Shown here in pieces: positions 38,721 through 44,861 of a stretch of DNA of 64,000 bases; positions within the stretch are counted from its first letter, which is position 1; the number at the start of each line of letters is the position of its first letter. Where the stretch lies: the NCBI RefSeq assembly GCF_030930995.1, contig NZ_CP133217.1, forward strand, positions 2,036,001 to 2,100,000, read 5' to 3'. This DNA comes from Thiothrix subterranea (GTDB lineage: Bacteria; Pseudomonadota; Gammaproteobacteria; Thiotrichales; Thiotrichaceae). A program made the translations under genes and the position numbers. The notes beneath the pieces are model-generated. The model worked only from the letters and a program-made list of their open reading frames with translations, was not told the origin of the DNA and ran no database searches.

Positions 38721-38724
38721 GGGG

Positions 38725-38838
38725 AAAGAACCCCTCACCCCCTAGCCCCCTCTCCCTCAAGGGGCGAGGGGGAACAAGAAAGGTTACTTCTTAGCCCCTC
38801 TCCTCTTGAGGAATAGGGGTTGGGGTGAGGGGTTCTTC
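38725..38838. repeat. Inverted pair of CCCCTC-rich palindromic repeats (family C)
   Basis: Two related blocks in opposite orientation (about 38725-38783 and 38785-38838), each built as AAGAACCCCTCACCCC, an AGCCCC stretch and a small stem with CCTCAAG. They fill the space between the convergent ends of dsbC and mutS and run into the mutS stop codon. A related block is found inside mutS at 40983-41041. Confidence 0.75.
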
Positions 38839-41446
38839 ACAACAATTTCCTCAACCGATACAACTCGTCTAGTGCTTGGCGCGGGGTGAGTTCATCCGGG
38901 TCTACGGCGGCGAGTGCCGCTTTCACTTTTTCGGCAATTTCATCTTTGGGTGCGGCGGGTGTTGCAAACATCAGGGGCAGGGTTTGTCCCGGTTGAGGGG
39001 CTTGCTGGCTGTGCTTTTCCAGTGATACCAGTTTCTTTTTTGCTTGTGCAATCACACCTTTGGGTACACCTGCCAATTGTGCGACTTGTAAGCCGTAGCT
39101 TTGGTTGGCGGGGCCTTCTTTCACCGCGTGTAAAAATACGATTTTGTCGCCATGCTCTACTGCGTCGATATGGACGTTCGCAATGGTGCTGATTTGTTCG
39201 GCGAGGGAGGTTAGCTCGAAATAGTGGGTGGCAAATAGGGTGAAAGCTTTACGGTCGCGGGCGAGGAATTCGGCAATTGCCCATGCCAGTGACAAGCCAT
39301 CGAATGTGCTAGTGCCGCGCCCGATTTCGTCCATTAATACCAAACTGTGGGCGGTGGCATTGTTGAGAATATTGGCGGCTTCGGTCATTTCTACCATGAA
39401 GGTTGAACGCCCGGTGCTTAAGTCATCGTGTGCGCCGATGCGGGTGAAAATACGGTCGATATTGCCGAGGCGGGCGGTTTGCGCGGGGACGTAGCTGCCG
39501 ATATGTGCCAGCAACACGATCAGCGCGACTTGGCGCATGTAGGTGGATTTTCCGCCCATATTGGGGCCTGTCACCATTAACATGCGGCGGCGCGAGTCCA
39601 TGTATAGATCGTTTGGCACGAAGGGGTTGTCGAGGGTGCGTTCCACTACCGGGTGGCGTCCGCCTTCGATTTGAATGCCTGCGCCGTCTACTAGCGCGGG
39701 GCAGTTGTAATTCAGGGTATTGGCGCGTTCGGCGAAGTTGCTCAATACATCCAGTTCGGCGATGGCTTGCGCACTGCTGCGAATGGGGTTCAAGTGTTCT
39801 AGCAAGTCGCGTAACAGGTTGTCGTAAATCGCTTTTTCGCGGGCAAGGGCGCGTTCGCGGGCGGAGAGTACCTTGTCTTCAAACTTTTTCAGTTCGGGCA
39901 GAATGAAGCGTTCCACGCCTTTAAGCGTTTGGCGGCGGATGTAGTCGGCGGGAATCCGGCTCAACTGGCTTTGTGGAATTTCGACGTAGTAGCCGTGGAT
40001 ACGGTTGTAGGCAACTTTGAGGTTGTTGATGCCGGTGCGGACTTTTTCGCGGGCTTCGAGATCGAGCAGGTATTGATCGGCGTTTTCGCTTAGGTTGCGT
40101 AATTCGTCGAGTTCGGCATCGAAACCGGGAGCGATTACGCCGCCGTCGCGGATGACCACGGGTGGATTGTCGATGATGGCGGAATCCAGCAGGTGGCGCA
40201 GTGATTCGTGCAAGTCGATGTTGCTGTGTAATTGCTGGATGTGCGGGTTGTCGATGCTGCCGATCAAACCGTGAATGCGCGGCAATACGTGCAAGGAACT
40301 ACGCAGGGTGGATAGGTCACGCGGACGTGCTGAACCCAGCGCGATGCGGCTGGCAATGCGTTCGATGTCGCCGATGCCGCGCAAGGTTTCCAGCAGGGTT
40401 TCGTAGCGGTATTGGTCGAGCAATGCGCCGACGGCTTGGTGGCGGTTGCGCAGGGTGAAACGGTCTCGCAGCGGTTTGTTGAGCCAGCGGCGTAGCAAAC
40501 GGCTGCCCATGCTGGTGGCGGTTTTGTCGATCACTGAAATCAGGGTGTTTTTGTGTTCACCGCTGATGCTGTATTCGAGTTCCAGATTGCGGCGGCTGGC
40601 AGCGTCGAGAATGATGCCTTCGTCGCTAAGTTCTACTGTCAAGCTGTTGATATGGGGCAGGGCGGTGCGCTGGGTTTCTTGCACGTAATTGAGCAATGCG
40701 CCCGCAGCGGCAATGGCGAGTGGCAGGTGATTGCAGCCGAAACCGTCGAGATCGTGTACCCCGAATTGGCGTAGTAGTAGGCGCTTGGCGGTGTCGAGGT
40801 CGAAGTGCCATTGCGGGCGCGGGGTAGAAATGCGGTTGCGGGCGAAGGCGGGTTTCCAGTCTTCGTCGTGCAGGATTTCAGCGGGTTGCAGGCGTTCGAT
40901 TTCGTTGTGCAGGGTGGTGTCGGAATCGGCTTGTTGGACGGTGAAGCGTCCGGTGCTTAGGTCGATGGCTGCGATGCCGTAGGAGGAAGAACCCCCCTTC
41001 CCCAGCCCTTCCCCCGCAAGGGGGGCAGGGAGTGAAGAGGTGCGGTGGATGGCTACTAGGAGGTTGTCGCGGCGGTCGTCGAGGAGGTAGTCGTCGGTGA
41101 CAGTGCCGGGGGTAAGCAGGCGGGTGATTTTGCGTTCGACTGGGCCTTTGGATTTGGCGGGGTCGCCGATTTGTTCGCAAATGGCGACGGATTCGCCGAC
41201 TTTGAGGAGTTTGGCGAGGTATTGTTCGACGGCGTGGTAGGGAACGCCTGCCATTGGGATGGGTTCGCCTGCTGTTGCACCGCGTGCGGTGAGGGTGATG
41301 TCGAGCAGGGCAGCGGCTTTTTTTGCGTCATCCATGAACAGTTCGTAGAAATCACCCATGCGGTAAAACAGGAGGATGTCGGGGTACTCCGCTTTGATTC
41401 GGAAATACTGTTGCATCATGGGAGTGTGTTGCTGTTCTTTGCTCAT
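38837..41446 (-). CDS. mutS: DNA mismatch repair protein MutS
   Basis: Recognises mismatches and starts methyl-directed repair. In 869 residues it carries the mismatch-binding segment near the N-terminus ([26 protein letters not shown], with the F-Y-E motif), Walker [14 protein letters not shown] and [17 protein letters not shown]. Unusual: around residues 136-154 it contains [14 protein letters not shown] flanked by serines, which is translated palindromic repeat and not MutS family sequence. The frame stays open through it. The C-terminal stop abuts another repeat pair. Confidence 0.97.
40983..41041. repeat. Palindromic repeat inserted in-frame in mutS
   Basis: AGAACCCCCCTTCCCCAGCC, then a stem CCCCCGCAAGGGGG and a GGGAGTGAAGAGG tail. 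It resembles the CCCCTC-rich elements at 38725-38838. Translated on the mutS strand it gives the low-complexity peptide [14 protein letters not shown] without a stop. Flanking residues align naturally with MutS on either side (DNLLVAIH before, [13 protein letters not shown] after). Confidence 0.8.
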
Positions 41447-41637: not shown

Positions 41638-42132
41638 ATGATGATTCTCTACAGTGATTCAAAAGGGGCGTTATCTGTCCATATTTCGAGGAAACCAAGG
41701 GATGATGGAATGTATCTACGAGGTTTTTGTGAAGCTGCTAAGGGCTTGAGGACATGGCGCAAAGATCGGATTGTCCAAGAGTTTACCGATGAGGTTGAGC
41801 TTTATACCTACCTGAGAGCAAATCCGATAGATTCATGCTCAAATTCCACACAACGCAAACCACGAGCTAGAAAACCAGAAGGGGCAGTGTTTGAAATTTG
41901 TTTTACTGGATTTCCTGCCAAGGAGCGCTCAGAACTGGAGGCCAAAGCTACTGCTTTCGGTATGTGGGTCAAAAACAGTGTGACGGTGAATCTTGACCTG
42001 TTATGTACAGGAGAAAAAGCAGGACCAGTGAAAATGCAAAAAGCTGAGGCGCAAGGTACTTGCCTACTGACTGTCGATGAATTTTTTGATCTGGTGAATA
42101 ACGGTGTAATGCCAGAAGGATGGGTAAAATGA
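41638..42132 (+). CDS. Small BRCT-domain protein
   Basis: 164 residues. The C-terminal half (from FEICFTGFPAKERSELE through GMWVKNSVTVNLDLL, GPVKMQKAEAQGT and LLTVDEFFDLVNNG) has the order of a BRCT domain, like the one that ends NAD-dependent ligase. The N-terminal half is an uncharacterised alpha/beta region. BRCT domains bind DNA ends or phosphopeptides. No catalytic domain is attached. It overlaps the following disrupted gene by an ATGA, so the two formed an operon before the IS insertion. The assignment is by pattern and has not been tested by a profile search. Confidence 0.65.
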   Translation: MMILYSDSKGALSVHISRKPRDDGMYLRGFCEAAKGLRTWRKDRIVQEFTDEVELYTYLRANPIDSCSNSTQRKPRARKPEGAVFEICFTGFPAKERSELEAKATAFGMWVKNSVTVNLDLLCTGEKAGPVKMQKAEAQGTCLLTVDEFFDLVNNGVMPEGWVK

Positions 42133-42541: not shown

Positions 42542-43396
42542 CAGCAATTCTCATTTTGCCCCTCACCCAATAAAATGGCGTAAACTAGACCTATCCCATT
42601 GAGATCTGTTCCGGGAGGTGAAGTCAATGAGCTACCCAACCGTTACTGCTGCTGCGCTAACCGCACCGCTCACGTTTGCGGGTATCGTGGAGCAATTGCG
42701 CGATACATTCCGCGCCTTCCCCGACTGCCGCAAACCCGGCAATAATACCCGCTATACCTTGGAGGATGCGGGTTTGAGTGCCTTTTCGGTGTTTTTCATG
42801 CAGTGTGCGTCCTTTCTGGAATACCAGCGGCGCATGGTGGAGAACCAAGAGCGGAGTAATGCACAGACGTTGTTCGGTGTTCATGCCATTCCCTGCGACA
42901 ATCAAATACGCCATTTGCTGGATAGCGTGCCGCCGTCAGCCGTTGCGCCTGCTTACCGTTATCTTTTCAATGGGTTGCAACAGAATGGTTATTTGGATAC
43001 GTGGCGGGTGCATGACTACGGTTATTTGTTGGCACTGGATGGGACACAGCATTTTGCGTCATCCCACATCCATTGTGAGCAGTGTTTGACGAAGACGCAT
43101 CACAACGGGACAGTCACCTACTCACACCAAGTGCTGACCCCGGTTTTAACCGCACCCGATAAACCGCAGGTGATCCCGTTACCGCCAGAGTTCATCAGCC
43201 GCCAAGATGGGCAAACCAAGCAAGATTGTGAAATCAACGCCGCTAAACGCTGGCTGGCTCAGTGGGGCGCGGATTACATCCCGCTGGGCATCACGTTTCT
43301 GGGGGATGATTTGTATTGTCACCAGCCCTTTTGCCAAGCCGTCCTGGACGCTGGCGCACAGTTCATTTTCAACTGCAAACCCACTTCCCACACGAC
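42542..43396 (+). mobile_element. Truncated IS copy (left end and 5' part of transposase)
   Basis: Begins with the terminal sequence CAGCAATTCTCATTTT and continues nearly identically to the inverted complete copy at 43397-44861, ending abruptly after CACACGAC where the right end of the other copy starts. The 3' half and right end of this copy are missing. Only about two base differences were spotted in the shared part. Confidence 0.9.
42627..43396 (+). pseudogene. Truncated DDE transposase
   Basis: About 257 codons identical to the complete transposase at 43406-44776 except one substitution (VPPSAVAP versus VPPAAVAP). It retains the first two acidic residues (LALDGTQHF and FLGDDLYC) but lacks the third catalytic glutamate, so it cannot be active alone. 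The frame then runs briefly into the other copy. GGGAGGTG precedes the ATG. Confidence 0.9.
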
Positions 43397-44861
43397 CAGC
43401 AATTCTCATTTTACCACCCACTGCTCAATCTCATCCGCATGATGCCGCCGCTCTAAGCCGACGAGCATAAAATCCAGCAGAGCCGTCCAACTTTTGAAGC
43501 ACAAAAAGGTCGTGAGCGTATTGATGTCATCGAACAAACGTTCGCGTGACCCCACTTTCTGAAGTAAAGTTCGGAAACGCTCATCCATCAAGTCAATCAC
43601 GGTATGGACGAGATAAGCCAATAACACTAATGCGGCCAACAAGTTGGCGAGGTGTTGCTGCCCATGCCCGAAGTTGTGTTCAAAGTGGTAGCCTTTGGTT
43701 TTCAGGGTATTGTTGTTTTCGTTCTCAATCTTCCAGCGACACCTCCCAGCCTTCACAAGATCGACGACCTTGCCGGTGGTGATAGGGTGAGAGGTGGCGA
43801 AATCGTTATGGTATAAGCAATTACCATCATCACGCACACTCGTGAGGCTGAACCAGTTGACACGCAGGGCATCGTCTCCATCACGTAAGGGCATCTGCGT
43901 CGCAAAACGGTAGGTATCCGTGACAGAATGCTTTCCCATCCGCCGCTGTACAAGATGGGTACGTATCGCGCCGATTTTCTCTAGCCCTTCCAACTCTTCA
44001 TATAAGGTCGTGTGGGAAGTGGGTTTGCAGTTGAAAATGAACTGTGCGCCAGCGTCCAGGACGGCTTGGCAAAAGGGCTGGTGACAATACAAATCATCCC
44101 CCAGAAACGTGATGCCCAGCGGGATGTAATCCGCGCCCCACTGAGCCAGCCAGCGTTTAGCGGCGTTGATTTCACAATCTTGCTTGGTTTGCCCATCTTG
44201 GCGGCTGATGAACTCTGGCGGTAACGGGATCACCTGCGGTTTATCGGGTGCGGTTAAAACCGGGGTCAGCACTTGGTGTGAGTAGGTGACTGTCCCGTTG
44301 TGATGCGTCTTCGTCAAACACTGCTCACAATGGATGTGGGATGACGCAAAATGCTGTGTCCCATCCAGTGCCAACAAATAACCGTAGTCATGCACCCGCC
44401 ACGTATCCAAATAACCATTCTGTTGCAACCCATTGAAAAGATAACGGTAAGCAGGCGCAACGGCTGCCGGCGGCACGCTATCCAGCAAATGGCGAATTTG
44501 ATTGTCGCAGGGAATGGCATGAACACCGAACAACGTCTGTGCATTACTCCGCTCTTGGTTCTCCACCATGCGCCGCTGGTATTCCAGAAAGGACGCACAC
44601 TGCATGAAAAACACCGAAAAGGCACTCAAACCCGCATCCTCCAAGGTATAGCGGGTATTATTGCCGGGTTTGCGGCAGTCGGGGAAGGCGCGGAATGTAT
44701 CGCGCAATTGCTCCACGATACCCGCAAACGTGAGCGGTGCGGTTAGCGCAGCAGCAGTAACGGTTGGGTAGCTCATTGACTTCACCTCCCGGAACAGATC
44801 TCAATGGGATAGGTCTAGTTTACGCCATTTTATTGGGTGAGGGGCAAAATGAGAATTGCTG
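43397..44861 (-). mobile_element. Complete insertion sequence, 1465 bp
   Basis: Both ends read CAGCAATTCTCATTTT towards the inside (16 identical bases), then diverge (TACCACCC at the transposase 3' side, GCCCCTCA at the 5' side). One transposase gene fills it. The outer end at 44861 is followed by the 9-bp target duplication; the inner end at 43397 abuts the truncated copy. The type of ends and the 9-bp duplication fit the IS4-like/ISNCY group of DDE elements; a precise family name needs a database. Confidence 0.92.
43406..44776 (-). CDS. IS transposase, DDE type, complete
   Basis: 456 residues. DDE-type residues are visible as LALDGTQHF (first aspartate), FLGDDLYCHQ (second) and the glutamate in RWKIENENNNTLKTKGYHFE, which resembles the Y-REK type box of IS4-superfamily enzymes. 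The following EHNFGHGQQHLANLLAALVLLAYL is typical of the group. The ATG at 44776 is preceded by GGGAGGTG. The frame is intact, so the element may be active. Confidence 0.9.
   Translation of the reverse strand: MSYPTVTAAALTAPLTFAGIVEQLRDTFRAFPDCRKPGNNTRYTLEDAGLSAFSVFFMQCASFLEYQRRMVENQERSNAQTLFGVHAIPCDNQIRHLLDSVPPAAVAPAYRYLFNGLQQNGYLDTWRVHDYGYLLALDGTQHFASSHIHCEQCLTKTHHNGTVTYSHQVLTPVLTAPDKPQVIPLPPEFISRQDGQTKQDCEINAAKRWLAQWGADYIPLGITFLGDDLYCHQPFCQAVLDAGAQFIFNCKPTSHTTLYEELEGLEKIGAIRTHLVQRRMGKHSVTDTYRFATQMPLRDGDDALRVNWFSLTSVRDDGNCLYHNDFATSHPITTGKVVDLVKAGRCRWKIENENNNTLKTKGYHFEHNFGHGQQHLANLLAALVLLAYLVHTVIDLMDERFRTLLQKVGSRERLFDDINTLTTFLCFKSWTALLDFMLVGLERRHHADEIEQWVVK

Follow-up and report, generated by a model that had tools for sequence, protein, structure and literature searches.

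Rickettsia palindromic elements (RPEs; work of Ogata and Claverie) are reportedly short, multi-copy palindromes that lie in frame within unrelated proteins. REPs have also been placed within genes, and PMC3733652, which itself cites the work on Rickettsia, describes GTAG/CGTC REPs inside genes, many of them with roles in replication and repair (among them UvrABCD, RecBCD and Pol I), with REPs at the same site in recB of two Xanthomonas species; its authors speculate that intragenic REPs in repair genes lead to mutators. No MutS, MutL or SMC host of an intragenic REP is found in the part of PMC3733652 that was consulted, and among the papers listed in literature searches we found no report of a palindromic insert in mutS or of a case in Thiothrix. 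The insert that we describe in mutS of Thiothrix subterranea vividly illustrates an event of a kind already known, whose hosts MutS, MutL and SMC are apparently new as far as these sources extend.

The Thiothrix repeat, hereafter R1, behaves like an RPE in that it is a short, multi-copy palindrome found in frame in unrelated, conserved genes, with insert-free orthologues for MutS and MetH. The host is another one, and we liken the two by behavior and not by sequence. R1 shares with the intragenic GTAG/CGTC REPs of PMC3733652 its REP size, its copies inside repair and replication genes and its head-to-head dimers: all 15 neighboring pairs less than 120 bp apart are arranged minus/plus with heads inward, at gaps of 5 to 42 bp. 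It differs from them in that its consensus has TCTTGCTCCC at the left end, and upon inspection the 21-copy consensus contains no unpaired GTAG or CGTC motif. Inverted pairs and dispersed copies also recall REPINs and REPs mobilized by RAYTs. We recognized no cognate RAYT in the genome: the sole Y1_Tnp match is a 152-aa frame, in our judgment IS200-like by size, and it was rejected as a partner since none of four core 10-mers of the repeat occurs in its 3.4-kb locus.

A palindromic repeat in frame within mutS

The window, that is, the whole stretch of 64,000 nucleotides that was analyzed, carries mutS on the minus strand at 38837..41446, and the frame (41446..38837) runs along 869 aa with no interruption. 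The protein matches the solved MutS chain 7ou2 with 1021 bits and possesses all five Pfam domains, MutS_I to MutS_V, with MutS_I at residues 8-119 and the matched part of MutS_II at 152-266. Between these two domains, a loop of 22 codons (40982..41047, minus strand), delimited by the MutS alignment and by AlphaFold2 confidence, replaces a turn of 6 to 8 codons in insert-free relatives. It contains an R1 copy of 18 codons in frame with mutS, bounded at 40985..41038 (minus strand) by DNA search and covariance model, against 40983-41041 in the initial annotation; pattern search places its 41-bp core at 40992-41032 on the same strand.

In an AlphaFold2 model computed from 25 sequences, strands at residues 129-136 and 155-162 flank residues 139-151, which have a pLDDT below 50. 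The insert thus probably lengthens a beta-hairpin turn of the connector domain, with a tip predicted to be disordered. The alignment to 7ou2 gaps at the loop, and the turn falls at about W137-G142 in 1e3m numbering, which by our own count is the 7ou2 numbering minus a 6-residue offset. Compared as a whole with the PDB, the model best matches E. coli MutS (1w7a and 1e3m; TM score of 0.64 by query length and 0.70 by target length), at an rmsd of 12.3 Å, which implies that the placement of domains in the model is poor. The Walker A and F-x-E mismatch motifs are invariant across the 25 aligned sequences.

MutS matches were obtained in 37 of 40 genomes, and the loci from the 30 best places were aligned. 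Within the genus, 8 of 16 genomes carry the R1 insert (G000, G001, G003, G004, G008, G010, G012 and G014) and seven have an insert-free turn of 6 to 8 codons (G002, G005, G006, G009, G011, G013 and G015). The remaining one, G007, has at the same turn a 44-codon loop built from another, paired palindrome, whose pattern matches 24 times in G007 when up to two mismatches are allowed, including the one in mutS, against none for the reversed control; pattern search finds this type of palindrome in 11 of the 16 genomes. Relative to a 6-codon turn, the excess is 33 to 48 nt in R1 carriers and 114 nt in G007, values that are necessarily multiples of three given that both flanks are measured within one open frame. 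R1 seems to have replaced host bases upon insertion, because carriers, as read from the alignment, lack the codons of KETH/TEDH type that relatives have. In the 60 of 80 named loci that were parsed (the other 20 remaining unparsed), linkers are 10 to 16 residues long, against 26 in the window MutS; the closest named record is from an uncultured Thiothrix MAG, at 81% MutS identity. Since eight genomes carry the insert, an assembly error is unlikely.

These results agree with the initial annotation in reading the element as a palindromic repeat inserted with the frame kept, in a predicted loop where domains I and II meet. It had reasoned that the residues might instead be conserved family sequence present where the repeat is absent; G009, the only genome of the genus with no R1 match, also lacks them. 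Its suggestion of a local source immediately downstream of mutS finds no support in the sequence. The head-to-head pair there, with halves at 38724..38780 (minus strand) and 38788..38839 (plus strand) by covariance model, belongs to another subfamily, centered on TTGAGG, and the genomic copy that best matches the one in mutS is some 290 kb distant, at C2:1786776-1786832, with 93% identity over 59 query bases and a core identical at 41 of 41 positions.

The R1 family and its other host genes

A DNA search of the genome with a 65-base mutS query returned 21 matches at E ≤ 0.05, the query itself included, 20 of them other copies at E ≤ 0.003. The covariance model built from these 21 copies, applied to 150 of 1994 first-look candidates, detected at least 65 copies of the GC-rich palindrome at E ≤ 0.01, so that the mutS copy is far above chance expectation. 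By their centers, TTGCGG and TTGAGG, the copies form at least two subfamilies. With the same model, the family was found in 15 of the 16 genomes of the genus, ours included, with 17 to at least 150 matches each, and was absent from G009 and from the eight genomes of the same class that were searched. Among 16 further genomes, three had a few matches: G019, of the same taxonomic family (3, the best at 51 bits), G033 (10) and G038 (2). The 41-bp core pattern, at up to two mismatches, matched in 13 of the 16 genomes of the genus, and its reversed control in none of them. Rfam gave no match to the mutS copy at E ≤ 1; its eight matches at that threshold all concern the downstream pair and miRNA families (best E of 4e-06), and being below gathering scores they were taken as chance. 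We also rejected the idea that the repeat is preadapted to coding, as the 65 copies have 3.46 open frames each, versus 3.91 after shuffling and, again, 3.46 for 54-mers drawn at random from the window.

Long frames belonging to 17 genes that have Pfam matches contain 27 of the 65 listed copies, 14 in sense and 13 in antisense orientation, and 38 have no assignment to a supported gene. By hand assignment, 23 of the 65 are in frame inside or between recognized domains of 14 conserved genes, which implies that the insertion process is not specific to MutS. Single copies occur in MutS, CobQ, a sigma-54 response regulator, RecB, a TIR-STAND-FGE protein and MetH; two each in MutL, a Methyltransf_28 protein, a pyruvate dehydrogenase-type E2 and its E3, SMC, HypF and an Eco57I-type methylase; and three in a DUF1156/DUF559 protein. 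The other four genic copies are weak or one-sided (an AAA_16 match below its cut-off, a VWA protein, an HlyD-like protein and the DUF1156 protein, for which it is the fourth copy). This last, methylase-like protein thus bears four in-frame copies (L139:959-4435). At L136:1663-4790, the adjacent E2 and E3 genes each have a head-to-head pair in the linker after a lipoyl domain, and the two pairs may share one origin because both adjoin lipoyl domains. For annotators, peptides of the SPLEGEGLG and PNPSPSRGEG types are to be regarded as derived from the repeat and not as family sequence, given the 14 conserved genes that they decorate by our hand count.

Different palindromes also occupy shared sites in MutL and MetH. 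We compared the MutL linker in 12 genomes of the genus, recognizing palindromes by reading the sequences, and found one of some family in nine: a palindrome of TTGAGG type in G000, G001 and, in degenerate form, G008, an R1-like palindrome in G003, G004, G006, G007 and G010, and in G011 a palindrome of the family seen in mutS of G007. None was recognizable by reading in G002, G005 and G009. In MetH, the site before the activation domain contains a TTGAGG-type palindrome in G000 and G007, and a different palindrome in G004, while in G005 the linker is longer and its GC-rich piece shorter; G001, G002, G003, G006, G008 and G009 have no palindrome there, and three loci from other families remained unparsed in this comparison. 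Elsewhere in MetH of G006 (L199), a further in-frame insert of 14 residues with FDFAQGTDATVVERSRN, absent from six MetH proteins of the genus in the alignment, appears to be a palindrome of a third kind. The 3' end of mutS also gathers different palindromes, another inverted repeat (GAGGGCGTATGCAATACGCCC) being present there in L013, L014 and L019, which come from other species.

Origin and history of the insert

We consider it highly probable, taken as a whole, that the mutS insert originated from a non-autonomous, REP-like repeat, was tolerated as a nearly neutral loop and spread partly by recombination between species. The repeat would have inserted into mutS within the genus, displacing a few host codons, and selection would have kept only a frame-preserving event in a permissive turn, the predicted beta-hairpin tip of the connector domain. 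The resulting peptide would most likely be a flexible loop extension, and the alleles bearing it would have spread later. Two findings count against this reading, namely, a 41-bp core more conserved than drifting codon sequence would be, and a genome search that brought up no transposase partner, its one Y1_Tnp match having no repeat core beside it.

Phylogenies of mutS and mutL from 12 genomes bear on the proposed transfer. In the mutL tree, G003 and G010 are the first to branch after the outgroup G009 (support of 0.86 for the remainder), whereas in the mutS tree they stand beside G000 and G001 (0.99 for the group including G006). This conflict indicates interspecies recombination of mutS or mutL, as expected if the alleles of one gene, whichever of the two it was, moved between species. 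The presence of R1 and of the G007 element at one turn implies at least two independent insertions there, and the question extends to R1 itself: several separate insertions at one hot spot, rather than a single one with subsequent losses and transfer, would be compatible with the preferred reading, and we put their probability only a little short of even. A hot spot is suggested by the different elements found at this turn in G007 and, across species, at one site of MetH and one of MutL, as well as by the insert-free G006, nested among carriers in both trees. L017 stands apart from the remaining carriers in the mutS tree, with insert-free genomes between, and a separate R1 insertion in its lineage is likely. 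For most carriers, however, the left junctions point to common descent, CATAGA being identical in four of them and the left ends similar in the others.

The mutS gene of the carriers is under strong purifying selection, with 0.135 parsimony changes per site at codon positions 1 and 2 versus 1.277 at four-fold sites among the eight. The core differs by 0 to 3 bases between carriers, against four-fold-site differences of 0.16 to 0.49, and one of its 13 third positions is variable, a value as low as in none of 760 equal-sized mutS blocks (minimum of 2, median of 8) and below those of 96 local blocks (minimum of 4, median of 6). When the most distant carrier, L017, is removed, 23 of the 760 blocks are as low, and when carriers of type A (four) and type B (three) are taken separately, 56 and 31 blocks, respectively, are as low. 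The freeze of the core DNA is thus suggestive, with L017 supplying most of the signal. Constraint, a separate insertion in the L017 lineage or homogenization could each account for it. Six of the eight core changes hit one dinucleotide, a site that also varies across genomic copies; in G001, G003, G010 and G012 no other listed copy has the variant seen in mutS, but in G000, G004, G008 and G014 it recurs among them, which makes the evidence for homogenization by copies of the same genome mixed.

A rival reading takes up the initial annotation's term "domesticated": the loop peptide, or an RNA or DNA hairpin inside the gene, would serve mismatch repair or mutS expression and be kept by selection. 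The scarcity of variable third positions, retention in half of the 16 genomes and the palindromes read in most MutL linkers would fit. Yet carriers differ in the residue encoded at the variable dinucleotide (L, S or P), the signal weakens as stated without L017, seven genomes manage without the insert, the RNA hairpin of the mutS copy folds no better than shuffles (z of -0.84) and the hairpin tip is modeled at low confidence. What these data show is retention, and we hold domestication for a function to be improbable.

Slightly less probable still is that the insert reduces MutS activity and yields a mild mutator lineage, along the lines of the speculation in PMC3733652. One genome has inserts in MutS, MutL and RecB, and the connector domain (128-266), according to PMC4521584, contacts MutL with Q211 and Q212 buried. 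The contact residues named there, Q211 and Q212, and the crosslinked position 246 are nevertheless far in sequence from the turn, and mutS of the carriers is under purifying selection. Because of this selection and of a low-confidence, probably disordered tip, we argue for little effect on the mutation rate. That, in this genus, dispersed palindromes from unrelated families repeatedly enter and leave the MutS turn and the MutL linker, reversibly tuning repair capacity while turnover between copies freezes the repeats as DNA, appears just as improbable as the mutator reading.

With carriers, insert-free genomes and a different element at the same turn in one genus, Thiothrix offers a comparative system for palindromes becoming protein, which also bears on whether core repair enzymes tolerate mobile palindromes. 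The surroundings of mutS contain two further features. Two near-identical, inverted transposase-like genes lie beside it at 42618-44785 of the window, one of full length (459 aa, minus strand) and one shortened (274 aa, plus strand), with a Pfam DDE match below its cut-off. Upstream of mutS and divergent from it, a 164-aa ORF at 41638-42132 has a BRCT match (E of 5.6e-6).
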